Of a DNA stretch of 46,772 nucleotides, positions 4,832 through 40,921 are shown piece by piece. Location: assembly GCA_007134885.1 (NCBI GenBank), contig SLJX01000007.1, positions 1 to 46,772 of the forward strand. Reading direction: 5' to 3'. The DNA is from Halanaerobiaceae bacterium. Lineage in GTDB: Bacteria; Bacillota; Halanaerobiia; Halanaerobiales; Halarsenatibacteraceae. Made by a program: the position numbers and the translations under genes. The notes under the pieces are model-generated. The model was not told the DNA's origin and searched no databases. It saw only the letters and a list, made by a program, of their open reading frames with translations. Each line of letters begins with the position of its first letter. Position 1 is the first letter of the stretch.

Positions 4832-5446
4832 ATGACAGCAAGTATTAAAAATATTATCTTTGATGTAGGGCAGGTTTTAATTAAATATAAACCCCTAAAA
4901 AATCTGGAAAAGGCTCTCCAGGATAAAATTCTGGCCAAAGATGTCTACACCAAAACCTTCGGTTCTCAGGACTGGCTTAAACTGGATCGGGGCCTGGTCA
5001 CCAGGGAGGAACTGGTAACCGAACTTGGCCAGAGATATCCCGAATTAGAGGATATCATTGCTGAATCTATCCGGAATTGGCCGGAATTTTTAGAACCTGT
5101 TCCCGAAAACGCCAGCCTTTTAGAGAAGCTTAAAGAAAGTGATTACCATCTCTATTATCTTTCCAACTTTCCCCGGGAGGGTTTTAAAGAAACTCAGGAA
5201 ATCTTTCCCTATCTGAAAATTTTTGAGGAGGGTGTCATTTCCGGGGAAACTGGATATATCAAGCCGGAGCCCGGTATTTATCGGGCGCTGATAGCAAAAA
5301 CTGATCTTGAGCCCTCTCTTTCCCTTTTTATTGATGACTGCCAGGAAAATCTAACAGCAGCCGAAAAGTTTGGTTTTCAAACAGTTCACTATACCGCTGA
5401 AACAGATTTAAGAGAAAAACTTCTAGAATATCAGATAAAAATTTAA
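4832..5446 (+). CDS. HAD superfamily hydrolase (IA-like)
   Basis: IIFDVGQVLIKY, YYLSNFPREGF, YIKPEPGIYRALI, SLFIDDCQENLTAAEKFGF. Confidence 0.9.
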   Translation: MTASIKNIIFDVGQVLIKYKPLKNLEKALQDKILAKDVYTKTFGSQDWLKLDRGLVTREELVTELGQRYPELEDIIAESIRNWPEFLEPVPENASLLEKLKESDYHLYYLSNFPREGFKETQEIFPYLKIFEEGVISGETGYIKPEPGIYRALIAKTDLEPSLSLFIDDCQENLTAAEKFGFQTVHYTAETDLREKLLEYQIKI

Positions 5447-5547: not shown

Positions 5548-5620
5548 GAACTGCCGCCCTACTTATCCACAGGGAGTGGATAAGCTGTTGATAACTGAAC
5601 AGCTGATTGGGCAGCAGTTC
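5548..5620. other. Predicted three-way-junction element containing inverted DnaA boxes
   Basis: Outer stem GAACTGC-c-GCCC / GGGC-a-GCAGTTC; hairpin CTTATCCAC-aggga-GTGGATAAG; hairpin CTGTT-gataactg-AACAG; includes TTATCCACA at 5563-5571. Confidence 0.55.
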
Positions 5621-5675
5621 GCAGCCCTATCTCTCCGGAAAAACTCCTGTCGAATTTTGAATCATTATATTTATA

Positions 5676-5727
5676 AGCAGATAAATCCCCGACACATCAA
5701 GCTTTATCGGGGATTTGCTTTTTTATT
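5676..5727 (+). terminator. Strong intrinsic terminator in an otherwise gene-free interval
   Basis: AAATCCCCGA / TCGGGGATTT 10-bp stem extended by AAGC/GCTT and followed by a T run. Confidence 0.75.
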
Positions 5728-5806
5728 ATATTTTGGATATTTCTGTTATCCTATTGATAATTATTTAAATTTAGCAGCAATTTCCCTCTGGCTTTTGCTT
5801 TAGCTG

Positions 5807-5830
5807 TTATTCACAACTGCCTGTGGATAA
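5807..5830. promoter_or_regulatory. Second inverted pair of DnaA-box-like sequences
   Basis: TTATTCACA (5807-5815, one mismatch) and TGTGGATAA (5822-5830, perfect reverse box). Confidence 0.6.
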
Positions 5831-5882: not shown

Positions 5883-6410
5883 TTATTCGGTGATTGCCGT
5901 CATTTTATTATAATCCAGCAGAAGCAGCGCTGCAATTACTATCCCGATCACTGCAAACCGCATTCCCGTCACCAGCGAAGTCCGATCAGCTATGGTGCCG
6001 CTAAAAACCGCCCCTAGACTGTAAATTGTGGTATAAAGGGTGGAAAAAAGCCCAAAGCCACTGCCCCGGGAGGCTTTTGGGATCATCTTTAAAACATAGG
6101 AATTGATAATGGTATTGTGACTCCGGAAAACAACCTCCAGCAGCACCAGAGAAATAATCACCCCGCCGTGATCAAATTCGCTGGTAAAATAGAAAAAGAT
6201 CACCAGACTGATAAGATAAAAAAGAGCCAGCATTCTTTTGCTGCCAAATCTTTCAGCCGACCAGGCTACCAGAATTTTAGTTAGCACTCCGCTGATGGTA
6301 ACAATCACAAATAACTGGTTGGCTCGACTGAAACTGTATCCCTGAAAGAAAAAGAGCAAAGAATTGGCGCTAAAAAGCAGTATTAAACTCCATCGGTTCA
6401 AATTTTCCAT
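5883..6410 (-). CDS. Half-length MFS-like membrane protein
   Basis: 175 aa, about 6 hydrophobic segments, MFS-like SAERFGSKRMLALFY and SRGSGFGLFSTLYTTIYSLGAVFSGTIAD; has its own RBS (AAGGAG) upstream. Confidence 0.65.
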   Translation of the reverse strand: MENLNRWSLILLFSANSLLFFFQGYSFSRANQLFVIVTISGVLTKILVAWSAERFGSKRMLALFYLISLVIFFYFTSEFDHGGVIISLVLLEVVFRSHNTIINSYVLKMIPKASRGSGFGLFSTLYTTIYSLGAVFSGTIADRTSLVTGMRFAVIGIVIAALLLLDYNKMTAITE

Positions 6411-6484: not shown

Positions 6485-7090
6485 TTAACCCTGATTTACT
6501 AGAGAGTCAAATAGCATCATATTTGCTTCCAGCATCGAGCCCCGCATCAGATCATTTATGGCCTGACGATAATCTTCGGGTTTAGTTCCGGGTATCCTTT
6601 CCTTATCGGCCAGATGTCCAATCAACACCATGTTCTGCATTCTGGCATCTTCCAGATCCTCTTTAAAAACCCGCTCCACTGAAACATCCAGCTTATCAGC
6701 CTCGGCAACAATTCTGTCAGCCGTGATATCCTCCTCCTGCCCCAGTCTGGCTGCCAGAGTCTGCCAGGAAGTATCATAATAGACCAGCTCACCACCCCGC
6801 TTCAGGTGGGTAATCATGCCTCTCAGAGCTTCGTTTCTCTCCAGGGCAATTACCATATCGGCCTGCTGCTCCCTGATCAGCGGGGTAAAAGTCTTCGGTC
6901 CCAGCCGGAGATTGGAGACTACCATGCCGCCCCGCTGGGCCAGTCCATGGGTATCCACCCCCCGTACCGGATAGCCAGCATAATCAGCTGCCCGGATGAG
7001 AATTTCACTTAACATGCCAATCCCCTGACCGCCAACTCCAATCAGATAGAGATCGAGTTTGTTATTTCTGATCGTTTGAGTTCTACTCAT
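6485..7090 (-). CDS. iorB: Indolepyruvate ferredoxin oxidoreductase, beta subunit
   Basis: LIGVGGQGIGMLSEILIRAADYAGYPVRGVDTHGLAQRGGMVVSNLRLG; overlaps the iorA stop; start moved to the internal Met. Confidence 0.9.
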   Translation of the reverse strand: MSRTQTIRNNKLDLYLIGVGGQGIGMLSEILIRAADYAGYPVRGVDTHGLAQRGGMVVSNLRLGPKTFTPLIREQQADMVIALERNEALRGMITHLKRGGELVYYDTSWQTLAARLGQEEDITADRIVAEADKLDVSVERVFKEDLEDARMQNMVLIGHLADKERIPGTKPEDYRQAINDLMRGSMLEANMMLFDSLVNQG

Positions 7091-8984
7091 CACCGCCACC
7101 TCCCTGCTCGGCAAAAACTATGGCCCGGGTCGGACAGGTCTGCAGACAGGAACCATCCCCGATGCAGAGATCATCCTGCACCCAGACCGTCCCATCTTCC
7201 TCCAGCTGAAAAGTGGGACAGGCAAAATCACTGACACATTCATGTATCTGAACACATTCTTCCTGATCAATTTTGACCTTCTTGTCTTTATAGGAGCCCT
7301 GACGCCGCTGCTCCCGGGTAAACTTCAGCATACAGGGATGCCTGGCTATAACGGCATTAAAACCAGAGCTGGAAACAGCCTGTTCGACCATTTCCTGCAG
7401 CCGGTCCTGGGCATAGGTGTCGGTTTCGTAAATTTCTTTTACGCCCAAACCTTCCAGTACCTGGCGGACCGGGATGGCTTCGACCTTCTGATTGAAGTTC
7501 TGCCCGGAAGCCGGGTGATCCTGATGACCGGTCATGGCAGTGGTGCCGTTCTCCATCAAAATCAGAGTCAGATTGTGATCGTTAAAGACGGCATTAACAA
7601 TCCCGGGCAGCCCGGCATGAAACATGGTGGAATCACCCAGAAAGGCTACCACCTTTCTCTCATCGTTGAAGAGAGACAGGCCGGCTCCGGTGTTGGTAGA
7701 GTGACCCATCGAAAGCAGAACCTCCCCCATTTCATAGGGAGGAAGAAATCCCAGAGTATGACAGCCAATATCAGCTACCGTTATATCATGTTTATCCAGC
7801 GCCTTTTTGATGGGGTGAAAGGCCGAGCGGTGGCCGCAGCCCGGACACATCTGGGGCGGTCGGGGTGAAATTGGCAGGGAGCGCTCTTCAGTCTCCTCCT
7901 TCGGCAACAGATCAGGCCAGCATCTCCTTAAAACCCGGGCAACCTTGTCAGGGGTATATTCCCCCATCCAGTCTTCAATACCCTGTTTGCCCAGGATTCT
8001 GGTTTCGATTTTCTCATCGAAAGCCAGGCTTTTAATCTGCAGCTCCAGCACATCATCCAGTTCTTCCAGGATTTTAACTTCCTGATGCTCCTTGAGAAAA
8101 GACAAAATCAACTTTTTATCCAGTGGTTGAACCAGCCCCAGTTTTAAAATGTCGGGTTTGTTCTGACGATCATCATCAAGGTCCTGCAACACATCCTGCA
8201 GCGAGAGATAGGGCACCCCGGTGGTGATAATGCCCCTCTTTTTATTATTATTATCTTCAATCCGGTTGAGATCAGAGCTGCTGGCATACTCTCTCACTTT
8301 TTCCCATTTATTGAGAGCCCGGCGTTTCATGGGAAAAACCTCTCTGGTAATGGGAACATAGGGGCCGTTTTCACTGGAGAAACGAGGCTTATCATCAAAC
8401 TCCAGGGGTTTCCAGCCGCCAAAAGAGACCCTCTCCTTGGCATGACAGACATGGGTAGTCAGCCGCAGGATAATCGGCATTTTCTCCCGGCGGGAAATAG
8501 CAACGGCTTCAAGATACATCCGGTAGACCTCCTGAGGAGTAGCCGGCTCCAGCATCGGAATATAGGAAAGCTGGGAGTAGTGCCGGTTATCCTGCTCATT
8601 CTGGGAAGAATTGGCTCCGGGATCGTCACCGATGACAACCACCATTCCACCGGTAAGCTCCATCAGACTTAACTGCACAAAACTGTCGGCTGCCACATTC
8701 AAACCCACACTCTTGAAGAAAACTGTGGAAAGATGGCCGTTGATAGAGGCTCCGAAGGCCAGCTCGGTAGCTACCTTTTCGTTGGTGGAAAACTCGAAGT
8801 AAAAGGGTCTTTCCTTCCGGGGAATGGCCTTGATAGCCTCGGCTATCTCGGGGGTGGGGGAACCGGGATAGGCCGCAACAACCCTGGTTCCGGCCTCCAC
8901 CATGGCCCGCACCAGAGCGGAATTGCCTATCACAATCTCTGACTGCGCTTCTCTGGCCAGCATAACATCCTTAAGTTCTTTCAT
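7083..8984 (-). CDS. iorA: Indolepyruvate ferredoxin oxidoreductase, alpha subunit
   Basis: AYPGSPTPEIAEAI, MCPGCGHRSAFHPIKKAL, C-terminal 4Fe-4S motifs CIGDGSCLQTCPTRAI; start trimmed to MKELKDVMLAREAQ. Confidence 0.92.
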   Translation of the reverse strand: MKELKDVMLAREAQSEIVIGNSALVRAMVEAGTRVVAAYPGSPTPEIAEAIKAIPRKERPFYFEFSTNEKVATELAFGASINGHLSTVFFKSVGLNVAADSFVQLSLMELTGGMVVVIGDDPGANSSQNEQDNRHYSQLSYIPMLEPATPQEVYRMYLEAVAISRREKMPIILRLTTHVCHAKERVSFGGWKPLEFDDKPRFSSENGPYVPITREVFPMKRRALNKWEKVREYASSSDLNRIEDNNNKKRGIITTGVPYLSLQDVLQDLDDDRQNKPDILKLGLVQPLDKKLILSFLKEHQEVKILEELDDVLELQIKSLAFDEKIETRILGKQGIEDWMGEYTPDKVARVLRRCWPDLLPKEETEERSLPISPRPPQMCPGCGHRSAFHPIKKALDKHDITVADIGCHTLGFLPPYEMGEVLLSMGHSTNTGAGLSLFNDERKVVAFLGDSTMFHAGLPGIVNAVFNDHNLTLILMENGTTAMTGHQDHPASGQNFNQKVEAIPVRQVLEGLGVKEIYETDTYAQDRLQEMVEQAVSSSGFNAVIARHPCMLKFTREQRRQGSYKDKKVKIDQEECVQIHECVSDFACPTFQLEEDGTVWVQDDLCIGDGSCLQTCPTRAIVFAEQGGGGDE

Positions 8985-12497: not shown

Positions 12498-12743
12498 CTA
12501 ACTCTCTTCCTGCTTATCCTCCTCCAGATAGCGAAAAAGGGGAATTTCTTGAGGTTGATAGCCCGGAAAAATCTCCTGCAGCCTCATCTTTACCTCTTCG
12601 TAGCTGTAATCCTCCAGTTTATCCAGCAGTCCAGAAATTTCCTCCAGCTGTTTTCTGCTTATCTCCCCGGACTGCTTTTTCTCATGATAAGCCCTGCAGA
12701 AGGCATTAACTGCCCTGAGATGAATCCCCCGATCATCCTTCAT
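12498..12743 (-). CDS. Small protein of unknown function overlapping the dnaB stop
   Basis: MKDDRGIHLRAVNAFCRAYHEKK...; start overlaps dnaB end by 11 nt, suggesting translational coupling. Confidence 0.6.
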   Translation of the reverse strand: MKDDRGIHLRAVNAFCRAYHEKKQSGEISRKQLEEISGLLDKLEDYSYEEVKMRLQEIFPGYQPQEIPLFRYLEEDKQEES

Positions 12744-14130
12744 AGGGCATGGCCTCCTCATAGGATAAATTTTCAGGGTCGATAAAGCAGATATGATCCT
12801 CATCAAACTCGAGTTTAGTTGCTCCGGTCTGACCGGTCCGCTGTTTTGCCACGATTACCTCTGTTTCACCTTCGGTTCCCTCCATCTGAGCCTTTTCCCG
12901 GGCAGCCGGGCTGGTATGAGCCTCCCGGTATAAAAAGATTACGCTGTCGGCAATCTCCTCGATATTACCGGAATCCCTGAGGTCAGATAGAACCGGCCTC
13001 TTATCCTGCCTGCTGGTATATTTTCGGCTAATCTGAGAAATCAGCAGGACGGGAACATCCAGCTCGGAAGCCATATTCCTGAGATGAAGCACGACTTCGC
13101 CTACAGCCCGGGCGGTATTCTGAGAATAATCTTCAGGAATCTGGATCATCTGCAGGTAATCAATAATCACCAGACCTATTTCCTCCAGCTGAGCTTTGAA
13201 TTTCCTCAACCGGGCCTGGATCTGGGCTACATTAAGCCCCCGTTCATCAGAAATCATCAGGGGATATTCGTGCATATCATTTAAGATCCGGGAAATCTTT
13301 TCATCCTCACTCTCACTGGTATGTCCCTGGGAATACTTCCAGGCATTAATATCAGCCTCCTGGATTACCATCCTATCAACAATTTCAGTGGCATCCATCT
13401 CCAGACTGATTATTCCCACAGAAATATCTCTTTTTAGCACATTCCGGGCTATATTGATAGCAAAGGCAGTCTTGCCCATGGAAGTAGAGGCTGCAATAAC
13501 AGTTAAATGCCCCTTTTTAAAGCCTCCCAGAAGCTTATCTAAGGACATGAAACCGCTCTGCACCCCGATATCAGCTTCATTATTGCGGCGCTTTAAATAC
13601 CTGTCATAGGAGGCAATTAGAGCCTCTTCCATGGAAAAAATGTGCTTTTCCAGATCACCGGTTTCGCTGGTGGCAGAAAATATCAGCTCCTGGGCCTGGG
13701 CCTGATATTCTTCAATGGTCATATCCGATTTTGCGGCCAGATCTTTAAGCCTGGCGGCTGCTTCCCGCAGCAGCTTCTTCTGATGTTCCTGTTTGATCAA
13801 ATCTATGGTGGGCTTAAGCTCTTCCCGGGTATTAAAGCCTGAAGTTAGCTGATCAACCAGACCATCAGGATCCTTTACCAATTCCTCCTCCCGTAATTTC
13901 AACAGCAGTTTGGTCCGGGAAATGTTGCCATCCTGTTGAAACTGCTTTAACAGTTCTTCATAGATCAGCTGAGCATGGGGATGGCTTAGATGTTTTACCT
14001 GCAGGTCATCTGCAGCTTCATTTATTAGTTCAGGAAACTGCAGTATAATTCCCAGCAGCTGAAATTCCTGCTCCCCTTCAGCCCGCTTATCCTGATTCAT
14101 CTGTCTTGCTGCCTGATTTTGTTTAACCAT
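12733..14130 (-). CDS. dnaB: Replicative DNA helicase
   Basis: GFKKGHLTVIAASTSMGKTAFAINIARNV, LVIIDYLQMIQ, LRDSGNIEEIADSVIFLYR. Confidence 0.95.
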   Translation of the reverse strand: MVKQNQAARQMNQDKRAEGEQEFQLLGIILQFPELINEAADDLQVKHLSHPHAQLIYEELLKQFQQDGNISRTKLLLKLREEELVKDPDGLVDQLTSGFNTREELKPTIDLIKQEHQKKLLREAAARLKDLAAKSDMTIEEYQAQAQELIFSATSETGDLEKHIFSMEEALIASYDRYLKRRNNEADIGVQSGFMSLDKLLGGFKKGHLTVIAASTSMGKTAFAINIARNVLKRDISVGIISLEMDATEIVDRMVIQEADINAWKYSQGHTSESEDEKISRILNDMHEYPLMISDERGLNVAQIQARLRKFKAQLEEIGLVIIDYLQMIQIPEDYSQNTARAVGEVVLHLRNMASELDVPVLLISQISRKYTSRQDKRPVLSDLRDSGNIEEIADSVIFLYREAHTSPAAREKAQMEGTEGETEVIVAKQRTGQTGATKLEFDEDHICFIDPENLSYEEAMPYEG

Positions 14131-14301
14131 ACTATTTCAGGCCTGCGGTTAGGCCCTCCACCTCCCAAAAGTTTGAATTATCCAGATAATCCAGCAAAAT
14201 ATTTTCTCTGCCATAAAACAGGAGAGCAGACCTGAGTAGAATCTATAATTTTCTGCCCTTCTGCTATTATTCATGATAATATTCCTGCCCGGCAGTACCT
14301 G

Positions 14302-15417
14302 CTAGCTTTCAGGACTCTCCCAGAAAAAATTTTCCCATTCCTGGCAAAATTCCTTCTCCTCGCGGTCCCGGGTCTGCCTGTCTTTCTGCTGAAAAAAATC
14401 ATTTTCTCCCAAAATCTCAGCCGCCTGGCCGATATTTTTAACTCCGGCCTGCTTTAAAGGTTTTATGTAATTTCTCTCAATGTAATCCAGCGAGGGGCTG
14501 CCATCTCTCTTATGACGAACTGCCTGCCTGACAGCCCAGCAGGCAATCTCCAGCGATAGCCCCCTGGATCCGGTTAGCCATCCCTTAAGGGTTTCGAGCT
14601 GGACAGGATTTAACTGATGGTAGTTTTTAAAGCCATATATTCGGGCCAGCTCTCTGGTCTCCCGGTAGAGCCTGTCATATTCTTTAAGTTTTTTTCGGGA
14701 AAAAATTCCTTTCTCATACCAGTCCGAAACAATAGCCCGGAGATAATAATGAGCCCTTTCATGGGGATTTTGAGGATAGCCCAGCCATTTCCCAACCCGC
14801 CTGAGAAGTTCCTGTAAAAGCTCGCCGGGAAAGTCCTTGCACCAGCGCTCAACCTCTTCGACAGCCTGCCGGTAGGCCTGAGAACCCTGGCTGCCGGGAA
14901 AAAAATCCAGCAGTTTCTCTCTGAGTTCCCTGTCAAAAACATCTGCAGCCTCCGGCGGCTTCTCTTCGGAATTAGCAGACCTCTTACCCTGTTCCTCCTT
15001 TTTTTCCAGAACTGCCTCAGCCCGATATTTTCCGGGAAAGATATTCTCTGGTTTAAAATTTATCTTAAGGCAGTCCAGCTGATTTTTTCCCGAGACAGCC
15101 TGCCGCTGATCCTGCTCTCCCTCTTTTTTTGTTACGCTGCTGTATTCCAGCAGATCGCATTCTTCCAGAAAATCCAGGGCAGACTGAACTTCTTTGCTGC
15201 TGCCGGGCAGCAGACAGTTCAATCTCTCCTGTTCCACTATATAGGGTTCCCTGTCAGCCCCCTTAGCCGACAGAAGTAAAAATAACGCCAGACTGGAGCC
15301 GGGAAATCGGGTTAAAAAACCTTTTTCAATTATCTTCTCCTCCAGCTGAACTGTTCTTCCCTCTGGAGTATCAGCAAAGGAAATTAGCTCCTCCTGCTGC
15401 CAGAATACTGGTGCCAT
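14302..15417 (-). CDS. DnaD-like primosomal/replication-initiation protein
   Basis: N-terminal wHTH-like region and C-terminal DnaD-type text; adjacent to dnaB. Confidence 0.5.
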   Translation of the reverse strand: MAPVFWQQEELISFADTPEGRTVQLEEKIIEKGFLTRFPGSSLALFLLLSAKGADREPYIVEQERLNCLLPGSSKEVQSALDFLEECDLLEYSSVTKKEGEQDQRQAVSGKNQLDCLKINFKPENIFPGKYRAEAVLEKKEEQGKRSANSEEKPPEAADVFDRELREKLLDFFPGSQGSQAYRQAVEEVERWCKDFPGELLQELLRRVGKWLGYPQNPHERAHYYLRAIVSDWYEKGIFSRKKLKEYDRLYRETRELARIYGFKNYHQLNPVQLETLKGWLTGSRGLSLEIACWAVRQAVRHKRDGSPSLDYIERNYIKPLKQAGVKNIGQAAEILGENDFFQQKDRQTRDREEKEFCQEWENFFWESPES

Positions 15418-28544: not shown

Positions 28545-28645
28545 GTTCAGAGTTCCGTCCCTTCAGAATTCTTAAGCCTGAGAGTTTCAGTTCCTGTGAA
28601 CCTTGCCCCTTCGGCGCTCCTGTAAAAAAAAGAGCTCTCTCCTGA
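28545..28645 (-). ncRNA. Glycine riboswitch, apparently a single aptamer
   Basis: - strand reads GGAGAGAGCUC...AGGAGCGCCGAAGGGGCAAGG...GAAACUCUCAGGC...GGGACGGAACUCUG, matching the glycine riboswitch consensus, upstream of gcvT. Confidence 0.92.
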
Positions 28646-28969
28646 ATTTCATCCGGAAAATACTATTAGTTTTTGGTGTATTTCCAGTCTTCTTTATCCT
28701 CAGCTAAAAATCAGACGATAAATCAGTCAATAAACAGTCAACAGAAAAAGCATTTTTTAAAACTCCCAAACTTTATTTACTTTATTATAAGGAAGCATTT
28801 AAGGCAGCCATTCCAGAAATATGCATTAACTTTTCCTCCGTTAACCGCTGCAGGGCCTTTAAAAGTCTATTTTCCTGTTATTCCTGTTATATTTATTCTC
28901 AAAGAAACAAAAAAGTCCTGCTTTAAAACTAAATTTTTTTATATGAAAGCTGATATTTTTATATTATAG

Positions 28970-30214: not shown

Positions 30215-31180
30215 CTATTTTAGTAGTTTTAAAAGGTTCCGCAACTCTTCGAGGTTGCTGCAGACAAGTTCGGCTTTAAAGCCATCCCCTCTTTCTTCAA
30301 GTTTAACCGTTAGCCCGGTTATTTCTTCCAGTTCCCGGGAATGGCGCTTCCATTCCAAAGATTCTGTTTGATTAGCAATCCCGTCCAGTTCATCCCCCTG
30401 CTCATCCCCGAGCTGTCTGCCAGTTCTGTCCAGCAGTTCCTCCAGTTCATTTAGCATTCCATCAGCATCTTCCCCGCTGGTCTCGTCGCCAGAAATTCTC
30501 TCTTTAATAGCTGAGACATGTTTTTCAGCCTGCCTGACCGACATTTCCTGGTCAATAATCTCTTCTGCGCCCTTTAGCTGAAGTTCAGGATCTTCCAGTC
30601 CGGCCAGAGCCCGGGCCTGGCCGGCAGATAATGTTCCACGTGAAACATATTCCTGTATTTTAACAGGCAGTTTCAACAGCCTCAGGCTGTTGCTAATGCC
30701 GGACCTGCTTTTACCCAGTCTCTCTGCCAGTTCACCCTGGGTCATCTCCATCCTCTCAAGCAGCTGTTTGTAGGCGGTTGCTTCCTCCAGGGGATTTAGA
30801 TCATCTCGATGGATGTTTTCAACCAGGGCAATCTCCATCATTCTATCTTCTTCAAATTCTTTAATTATTGCCGGAACTGTGTCTTTATTAGCCATCTTTG
30901 AGGCCCGCCAGCGCCTTTCCCCGGCTACTATATAATAGCCTTCCTCACCTTTTGGCGTCAGGATCAAAGGCTGCAGTACTCCATTCTCTTTGATGGAAGC
31001 TGCCAGCTCCTCAAGGCCTTCTTCCCGAAAAGATTCCCGGGGCTGATAGGGATTGGGTTCAATCTTTTCCACCCCCACATTTTTTATAATTTCATCGCTC
31101 TCCCTTATCGATTTCAGGCCGTCCTCGCCATCGAAAAAAGCATCCAGGCCCCGTCCCAGTCTTTTTTTCTTACTGTTCAT
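30215..31180 (-). CDS. parB: Chromosome partitioning protein ParB/Spo0J
   Basis: KRLGRGLDAFF, IEPNPYQPRESF, YIVAGERRWRASKMA. Confidence 0.97.
   Translation of the reverse strand: MNSKKKRLGRGLDAFFDGEDGLKSIRESDEIIKNVGVEKIEPNPYQPRESFREEGLEELAASIKENGVLQPLILTPKGEEGYYIVAGERRWRASKMANKDTVPAIIKEFEEDRMMEIALVENIHRDDLNPLEEATAYKQLLERMEMTQGELAERLGKSRSGISNSLRLLKLPVKIQEYVSRGTLSAGQARALAGLEDPELQLKGAEEIIDQEMSVRQAEKHVSAIKERISGDETSGEDADGMLNELEELLDRTGRQLGDEQGDELDGIANQTESLEWKRHSRELEEITGLTVKLEERGDGFKAELVCSNLEELRNLLKLLK
30632..30647. promoter_or_regulatory. parS site 2, inside parB
   Basis: TGTTCCACGTGAAACA, matches TGTTNCACGTGAAACA. Confidence 0.95.
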
Positions 31181-31940
31181 TTGCCAACACCTCCCGGGCT
31201 AATTCTTTATAAGCTCTAGCTCCAGAAGAACGGGGTTGATACTGAAGAATTGATTCCCCAAAGCTAGGAGCTTCACTTAATCTCACATTTCTGGGGATAA
31301 TCGTCTCAAAAATCTTATCAGAAAAATATTTCTTAACTTCCTCGGCCACCTGTTCAGAAAGATTGGTGCGGCCGTCATACATGGTAAGCAGAACGCCCTC
31401 AAGGTCAAGTTTGGGATTGACATTCTCTCTCACCCGTTGTATTGTATCCAGGAGCTGTCCCAGGCCCTCCAGTGCATAATATTCACACTGAATAGGAACC
31501 AGCACCTTCTCAGCAGCTGCCAGAGCATTTAAAGTAAGTATTCCCAAAGAAGGAGGACAGTCAATCAATATGTAGTCAAAATCTTGATGACACCTGTCTA
31601 TTGCTCGAGCCAGCCTCTTCTCCCGGGAAATTTCGGTAACCAGCTCTATTTCAGCCCCGGCCAGATCTATATTGGCAGGAATAACCTGTAAGCGGGGGAT
31701 ATCAGTCCCCTGAAGCACTTCAGCAAAAGAAGCATTTCCCAGCAGAAGATCATAGATGCTGTTTTCTATTTCATCCTTTACCAGGCCGAGACCGCTGGTG
31801 GCATTTCCCTGAGGGTCAATATCAACCACCAGGATCTGGCGGTCATACTCAGCCAGAGCCGCTCCCAGATTAATAGTTGTGGTGGTTTTGCCCACTCCAC
31901 CTTTCTGATTGACTATTGCTATTCTTTTGCCCATCATCAC
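31170..31940 (-). CDS. parA: Chromosome partitioning ATPase ParA/Soj
   Basis: KRIAIVNQKGGVGKTTTTINLGAALAEYDRQILVVDIDPQGNATSGLG. Confidence 0.97.
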   Translation of the reverse strand: MMMGKRIAIVNQKGGVGKTTTTINLGAALAEYDRQILVVDIDPQGNATSGLGLVKDEIENSIYDLLLGNASFAEVLQGTDIPRLQVIPANIDLAGAEIELVTEISREKRLARAIDRCHQDFDYILIDCPPSLGILTLNALAAAEKVLVPIQCEYYALEGLGQLLDTIQRVRENVNPKLDLEGVLLTMYDGRTNLSEQVAEEVKKYFSDKIFETIIPRNVRLSEAPSFGESILQYQPRSSGARAYKELAREVLANEQ

Positions 31941-38831: not shown

Positions 38832-38905
38832 GGATTTTAAAGTTTTCCACAGTTTTATTTCTGTTGATAAACTGTCCACAATCTGTTATTATATTATTAA
38901 TTCCC

Positions 38906-39191
38906 TGTGGATAATTTTTCAGCTTGATTATCTGCAGGAAATTTTATTTGGGATAACCGGTTATCCACAAAAGGGGACATATTTCTCCAGGCACCGAAGT
39001 TTTCCACAAAATTAACAGGGGTTTATCCACAAATTGTTGATAAGTGCTCCCCTGCAACTGACTTTTGTGGATAACTCCGGGATTAATCCACAGAGATGTG
39101 GACAATATTTTTTTAACCCAATCTCGTCTTTTAACTGTCAAAGTTTATAATTTTCCAGAAAAACTGTGGATAACTGGGGCAGTTATCCACA
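38906..39191. other. oriC: oriC, dnaA-upstream DnaA-box cluster
   Basis: Perfect TTATCCACA or reverse complement at 38906-38914, 38961-38969, 39023-39031, 39066-39074, 39165-39173, 39183-39191, plus near matches. Confidence 0.93.
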
Positions 39192-39225
39192 GTTTGTGGA
39201 AAGTTTATTTGCAGGAGGTATGTTA

Positions 39226-40623
39226 ATGTTCAATACTAAAGAATTGGATAAGGTATGGGAAAAAACCCTGGATACCATCAAGGAACAGCTCAGCAATCCC
39301 AGTTTTAAGACCTGGTTTTCTGATACTTCACCACTTGAACTGACCTCTGAGGGAGTGTTAAAACTTAAGGTGCCCAATGATTTCATCAAGGACTGGATCG
39401 AATCCCGCTATACTGAACTTATAATTAAAACTATTGCTGAACTCACCGATACCGAAGTAGAGCTGGAATTTTTAACTCCAGAGGAAATTAAAAAACTGGA
39501 GGAGGAACAAAAAAACAAAGATAAACCGGAAGCTGAATCCCGATCCCGCGCCGAGATAAGACCGGTCGATAATAGCAGGGTAAAGGGCAGTTTAAACCCC
39601 AAATACACTTTTGAAACCTTTGTAGTCGGCAGCAGCAATCGTTTTGCCCATGCCGCTTCTCTGGCTGTTGCTGAAGCCCCGGCCAAGGCCTATAATCCCC
39701 TCTTTCTTTATGGTGATGTTGGACTGGGAAAAACCCATTTAATGCAGGCCATTGCTCACTTTATTTTAGAACATAATCCCGACCATAGTGTGGTCTATGT
39801 TTCCTCCGAAACCTTTACCAACGAACTTATCAATGCCATCAAGGATGATAAAACCGTTAAATTTCGCAATAAATACCGCACCATTGATATACTTCTGGTC
39901 GATGATATTCAATTTCTTGAGGGCAAGGAAAGAACTCAGGAAGAATTTTTCCATACCTTTAATGCTCTCCATGAAGCCAACCGCCAGCTGATAATCTCCA
40001 GTGACAGACCTCCCAAGGAAATTCCCACCCTGGAGGAAAGACTGCGCTCCCGCTTTGAATGGGGGCTGATTACCGATATTCAAAAACCGGATCTGGAAAC
40101 CAGAATAGCAATTCTTCGCAAGAAGGCCGATCTGGAAAATCTGGAAATTCCCAACGAAGTTATCATTGATATTGCCAATAAAATTCAATCCAATATCCGG
40201 GAGCTGGAGGGAGCTTTAATAAAAGTTATTGCCTATGCTGAGCTGGTAGACCGGGATATTGATCTGGAATTGGCCCAGGAAGCTCTCAAAGATCTGATCA
40301 ATACTGATAGCGGATCAACCCGGGAAATTAATATCCCTAATATTAAAAAGGTGGTAGCAGAAAATTATAATATAAATCTGACCAAGATGGATTCCAAGAA
40401 ACGCACCCAGAATATCGTGCTCCCCCGCCAGATAGCCATGTACCTGTCCCGAGAAATGACCGACTCCTCGCTGCCGGTAATAGGAGATGCCTTTGGCGGC
40501 CGGGATCATACCACCGTGATGCATGCCCATAATAAAATTACCGAAAAAATTGAAGAAAACCAGGAATTTCGCAAGACCATCAGCAAATTGCAAAAAAAGA
40601 TTACCGGGTCTGATTCCTTTTAA
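39226..40623 (+). CDS. dnaA: Chromosomal replication initiator protein
   Basis: [65 protein letters not shown]; start placed at MFNTKELD after GCAGGAGG. Confidence 0.98.
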
Positions 40624-40660
40624 TTTCTTCATTTTAATTTTTTTATCCTTCAATCAGCTT

Positions 40661-40781
40661 TCTTTTTTTATAATCTCTTTTTTTATAATCTGGGGATAAC
40701 CCTGTTGACAGCTTTTTAATAATCTGTGGATAAATTTGTGGATAGTTTTTTAGAGTCAGTTTTCTGTTTATATGTGGATAA
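40661..40781. other. oriC: oriC, dnaA-dnaN part: AT-rich tandem repeat plus DnaA boxes
   Basis: TCTTTTTTTATAATC perfect tandem duplication (40661-40690); TGTGGATAA at 40725-40733 and 40773-40781. Confidence 0.8.
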
Positions 40782-40921
40782 TATTTAATAACTGCTAACA
40801 TTTTTTTCACAGCCCTCTTCATTTATATTTCAAGGTTTTAGCCGGCTTTTTAACATTTCAACAGCCCCTATTACTATTATTACTAAATAAAGATTAGATA
40901 GATAATTATGGAGGTGCCAAC

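Follow-up and report, generated by a model that had tools for sequence, protein, structure and literature searches.

In B. subtilis, six DnaA-box clusters (DBCs) lie outside oriC, and their joint deletion leads to early initiation (PMC13220808, PMC5295017); one review considers these clusters to be of no significance for the control of initiation (PMC5295017). Most of them carry 7–11 sites and the one at trmE carries 4, the gcp-ydiF cluster sits between two 3' ends, and the ywlB-ywlC junction is a strong DnaA-binding region (PMC4447404). A 2026 review regards as an open question whether B. subtilis possesses any means of balancing ADP- and ATP-DnaA (PMC13220808). The cores of E. coli DARS1 and DARS2, taken here in the layout given by PMC5742627, have a 5 and 3 bp geometry.

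For Halanaerobiales, the literature searched contains no DnaA-box cluster outside oriC. Here we describe a locus which, judging from its sequence, is probably a chromosomal cluster of this kind, DBC-like and working as DNA rather than RNA. The window (the whole stretch of DNA analyzed, 46,772 nt) is one 46.8-kb contig of the 2.3-Mb draft genome of a Halanaerobiaceae bacterium.

Five candidate boxes in a convergent gap

The features of the locus and its reference points in the window are as follows.

4832–5446, + strand: HAD-family hydrolase gene (PF13419/PF00702), left border of the convergent gap; syntenic in relatives G001 and G002
5563–5571, + strand: candidate DnaA box I, TTATCCACA, perfect; unchanged across the four genomes of the genus
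5575–5583, − strand: candidate DnaA box II, TTATCCACT (plus-strand letters AGTGGATAA), one mismatch
5586–5594, − strand: candidate DnaA box III, TTATCAACA (plus-strand letters TGTTGATAA), one mismatch
5595–5610, no strand: conserved flank of box III, CTGAACA..TGATTGG, nearly invariant in the four genomes, with the DNA farther out diverging
5676–5727, + strand: predicted Rho-independent terminator, stem 5683–5692/5707–5716, then a T run
5807–5815, + strand: candidate DnaA box IV, TTATTCACA, perfect; TTATCAACA in G001
5822–5830, − strand: candidate DnaA box V, TTATCCACA (plus-strand letters TGTGGATAA), perfect; faces box IV; the same in all four genomes
5883–6410, − strand: MFS-transporter gene, short (175 aa, matching under half of the Pfam model); right border of the gap here
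38843–40811, no strand: oriC, box clusters flanking dnaA (39166–40623) on both sides; reference point, 33.3 kb away

Five candidate boxes, three perfect and two with one mismatch, thus lie within 268 bp, and each was found where the first-pass annotation had put it. Boxes I–III are arranged →, ←, ←. Box II faces box I across a spacer of 3 bp (4 bp in G001), and box III, oriented like box II, lies 2 bp away in both genomes. The gap is convergent: both neighboring genes point inward, and no gene starts inside it. On the left the HAD gene is retained in G001 and G002, and on the right the border in these two genomes is the counterpart of window gene 6485–7114 (POR family, iorB-like).

The locus lies 33.3 kb before dnaA, in agreement with the ∼33 kb estimated earlier; this distance comes from the window's genome, as G001 has the locus and dnaA on separate contigs and the contigs of G002 and G003 are too short to span it. 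From their position and sequence, we take the genes after dnaA to be dnaN-, recF- and gyrB-like. A Soj/Spo0J-like pair (30215–31940) lies beside the origin, and a family search found YabA in the genome. Hda was not found over the family cut-off in the genome, and a plasmid search gave no match. Two other features of the window were recorded. A DnaB-like helicase gene adjoins a gene with a DnaB_2 domain (replication initiation and membrane attachment), the two together at 12733–15417 on the − strand, ∼24 kb before dnaA, and neither has a match in the G001 stretches compared. A glycine riboswitch (28556–28652, − strand) is followed just downstream, on the same strand, by apparent glycine-cleavage genes.

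Conservation and rarity of the boxes

Three relatives of the same genus are available in a public collection, Halanaerobiaceae bins T1Sed10_84, T1Sed10_139 and T1Sed10_23, and the same gap with five boxes is present in all four genomes. G001 is the most diverged relative; its HAD protein is 56% identical to that of the window, and its gap can hardly be aligned with the window's outside the boxes. Between these two genomes, 42 of 45 box positions are identical, compared to 186 of 391 in the rest of the gap (Fisher P = 5.7e-10). Loss of the boxes in relatives had been proposed as grounds for rejecting the locus, and the boxes are instead kept, even in G001. Changes within them are few. Box II reads TTATCCACC in the three relatives, and box IV of G001 has gone from TTATTCACA to TTATCAACA, the box III variant, so that one box form is swapped for another and a hairpin pair is lost. 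The right-hand neighbor varies between genomes, and the boxes remain. When the 38 genomes of the order were searched with a strict pattern for the triad of boxes I–III, each of the four from the genus gave a single match, always at this HAD gene, and the other 34 gave none. In other genera, the surroundings of the HAD homologues showed no perfect-box cluster of this kind. One caveat here is that conservation is seen in four genomes, all of one genus.

To gauge chance occurrence, we turned to dinucleotide shuffles of the gap (n = 2000), which had a mean of 0.04 perfect boxes, with three reached in none of them (0/2000); five boxes at ≤1 mismatch were reached in 0.45% of shuffles. Pattern searches for perfect boxes found 51 TTATNCACA sites in the genome, eight of them at oriC, three at the locus and the others scattered. 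At their density outside the window (∼1 per 57 kb), 0.0004 triples spanning ≤268 bp are expected per genome. Apart from oriC and an IS110 element, the locus is the sole dense cluster of perfect boxes found in the genome. For perfect boxes, the genome-wide count suggested in the first-pass annotation leaves it standing alone outside oriC and IS DNA.

The second cluster, on contig C11, was set aside, as its boxes lie in and beside a transposase gene, presumably of the IS110 type from a reading of its translated frame. Multi-copy facing pairs in Halanaerobiales were likewise dropped as comparable loci, being located in an IS-like repeat. This repeat occurs in several members of the order, at ≤4 copies per genome; near one end it carries two DnaA boxes that face each other, for example TTATCCACAATTTTGCCTGTTGATAA, together with a further TGTGGATAA (TGTTGATAA in L051). 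This arrangement is at about position 1500 in L047, L051, L055 and L060 and at about 313 in L053.

Box triads elsewhere and rival explanations

A scan of the collection for boxes in the order →, ←, ← found at least 119 stretches. For 20 of the 80 loci listed, dnaA falls within the retrieved sequence, and most of their 21 matches have spacers of 3 and 3 bp; the remaining loci show no dnaA there, although some of them may be origins truncated by the limits of the retrieved stretch. Spacers of 5 and 3 bp account for 16 matches among those listed, all in Proteobacteria. In a sample of the Anaerobacillus order, the triad was present in 4 of 151 genomes, and a tail-to-tail control pattern had no match in the 151. 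All four loci, and a fifth Bacillales locus from the scan, have the 3 and 2 bp spacers of the window, and their triad is flanked by a ywlB-like (GNAT family) and a ywlC-like (Sua5 family) gene. At Bacillales loci (L142, L146, L196, L201, L202, L203), the 3-and-2-bp triad is kept at the ywlB-/ywlC-like junction and the surrounding DNA differs. Several Enterococcus species (L070, L075, L104, L105, L120, L126, L145) have a triad with spacers of 2 and 3 bp within a reading frame away from dnaA; the frame that was checked, in L070, encodes a PHP-domain protein. In Carboxydocella (L198, G045:C1:1376150-1376181), the sole triad lies roughly midway around the chromosome (2.7 Mb), going by the coordinates of the record.

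The main rival among DNA-based readings is a DARS-like locus, at which boxes I–III would join ADP-DnaA head to head and release ADP, with recharging by ATP promoting initiation. The boxes follow the order and orientation seen in the DARS1 and DARS2 cores of E. coli, where box I points against boxes II and III. The scan pattern does pick up DARS-like sites, given that the 16 proteobacterial matches away from dnaA, among those listed, all have spacers of 5 and 3 bp. In addition, the conserved flank after box III recalls DARS1, where DNA adjoining the last box is likewise required (PMC4585315). However, the spacers here are 3 and 2 bp (4 and 2 bp in G001) rather than 5 and 3 bp, and on this ground we ruled out membership in DARS proper. 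Other bacteria have similar triads in oriC, spaced at 3 and 3 bp (13 of the 21 dnaA-linked matches listed), and the layout is thus not DARS-specific. Hda was not found in the genome, and the locus is near oriC, whereas E. coli DARS1 and DARS2 map at 17.5 and 64 min. We therefore regard a DARS-like function as unlikely. Since the orientation is DARS-like, head-to-head DnaA may also exchange nucleotide here, but the differing spacing argues against the DARS name. A broader and rather doubtful idea is that the →, ←, ← unit at this locus, at the Bacillales ywlB-ywlC junction and in proteobacterial DARS cores is one shared device, such that Firmicutes-like clusters would release nucleotide from head-to-head DnaA and not merely titrate it. 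We know of no locus that recharges ADP-DnaA in Firmicutes-like bacteria.

DnaA might instead regulate the neighboring genes, as a transcription roadblock or by controlling readthrough at their 3' ends, a precedent being its control of genes at several DBCs in B. subtilis (ywlC, sda and vpr; PMC4447404). Against this, both neighboring genes run inward, leaving no gene start to be controlled, and the right-hand gene differs between genomes while the boxes persist, which together make such a role improbable. The first-pass annotation had also proposed a structured small RNA; in this reading, a small RNA or 3' UTR element would form a three-way junction ending at the terminator, and the DnaA-box letters would be incidental. 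The fold does exist in the window sequence and is strong (−36.7 kcal/mol, z −5.5), and the terminator, with its stem and T run, was located as described. However, the outer stem is 70.5% paired, with damage in G002 and collapse in G001. The covariation analysis that had been suggested, run as pair counts on four sequences and hence a weak test, gave values not above those of shuffles. The box hairpin is kept in sequence without compensatory changes; its invariance by itself is uninformative for RNA versus DNA. No promoter above chance was found in the gap, no Rfam family matches the locus, and the second conserved box pair (IV/V) lies beyond the terminator. Nor is the terminator without a gene, as had been claimed: the HAD gene stops 230 bp upstream of it. 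A terminator between convergent genes makes a hidden RNA gene unnecessary, and we take this one to serve those genes. Its stem is altered in sequence in G001 with pairing retained, and terminators typically keep the stem while the sequence changes. We accordingly rejected the RNA model, which seems very unlikely. Least credible of all is a decayed or accessory replication origin. Its boxes resemble those of oriC and the interval is AT-rich past the terminator, yet boxes are few, dnaA, rpmH and other origin genes are absent at the locus, and a conventional two-part oriC is already present at dnaA.

The locus beside known DnaA-box systems

Of the models in the first-pass annotation, the DNA model is the one that survives, as the boxes are what is conserved. 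Among its three named examples, DBCs are closest; DARS agrees in orientation and fails on spacing, and nothing specific speaks for datA. Several boxes are clustered outside oriC (five at ≤1 mismatch in 268 bp), and they are conserved above the background of the gap (42/45 versus 186/391, window versus G001). Most likely, the conserved five-box set is a DnaA sponge or switch that helps to set the timing of chromosome copying. We infer that DnaA occupies the locus and that titration is the effect. The terminator would then separate two DnaA-bound groups, the facing pair I/II with box III and the facing pair IV/V. As it is only ∼33 kb from oriC, the cluster would be duplicated almost immediately after initiation. 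The new copies would then hold extra DnaA beside the new origins, which would help to delay re-initiation, as is thought for B. subtilis DBCs. With YabA, a Soj/Spo0J-like pair and no Hda over the cut-off, control of DnaA looks B. subtilis-like, and such control proteins fit a titrating cluster near oriC better than any other reading. Five boxes are fewer than the 7–11 of most B. subtilis DBCs, and hence titration by this single cluster could be small. The cluster is conserved, has a DARS-like box orientation and shows a layout that recurs at a known B. subtilis DBC; a compact fragment (∼75 bp) would allow titration and nucleotide exchange to be separated in vitro.

Compared with E. coli datA, the locus likewise has boxes in a gap outside oriC and a proposed negative effect on initiation. 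However, datA depends on an IHF site lying among its boxes (layout 7-2-IHF site-3, IHF-dependent ATP hydrolysis), and nothing specific links the cluster to datA or gives evidence of homology. With DARS1 and DARS2 it shares a three-box layout in which box I is oriented against the other two, and its facing pair is nearly the same in sequence as that of DARS1 (TTATCCACT-ATTCC-TGTGGATAA); it differs in its 3 and 2 bp spacers, its place near oriC and the lack of a detectable Hda. Triads in oriC beside dnaA, in Firmicutes and others, have the same three-box order and orientation, mostly at 3 and 3 bp, whereas here dnaA is not within 33 kb and no further origin features are present. Relative to B. 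subtilis DBCs, this candidate cluster has other flanking genes and fewer boxes, belongs to the Halanaerobiales lineage and is split by a terminator into two box groups. Like them, it groups several boxes in an intergenic gap outside oriC, and this gap is convergent, like the one at gcp-ydiF. The YabA/Soj type of control is shared as well, and so is the →, ←, ← triad with spacers of 3 and 2 bp, which is found at ywlB-ywlC in Bacillales relatives.
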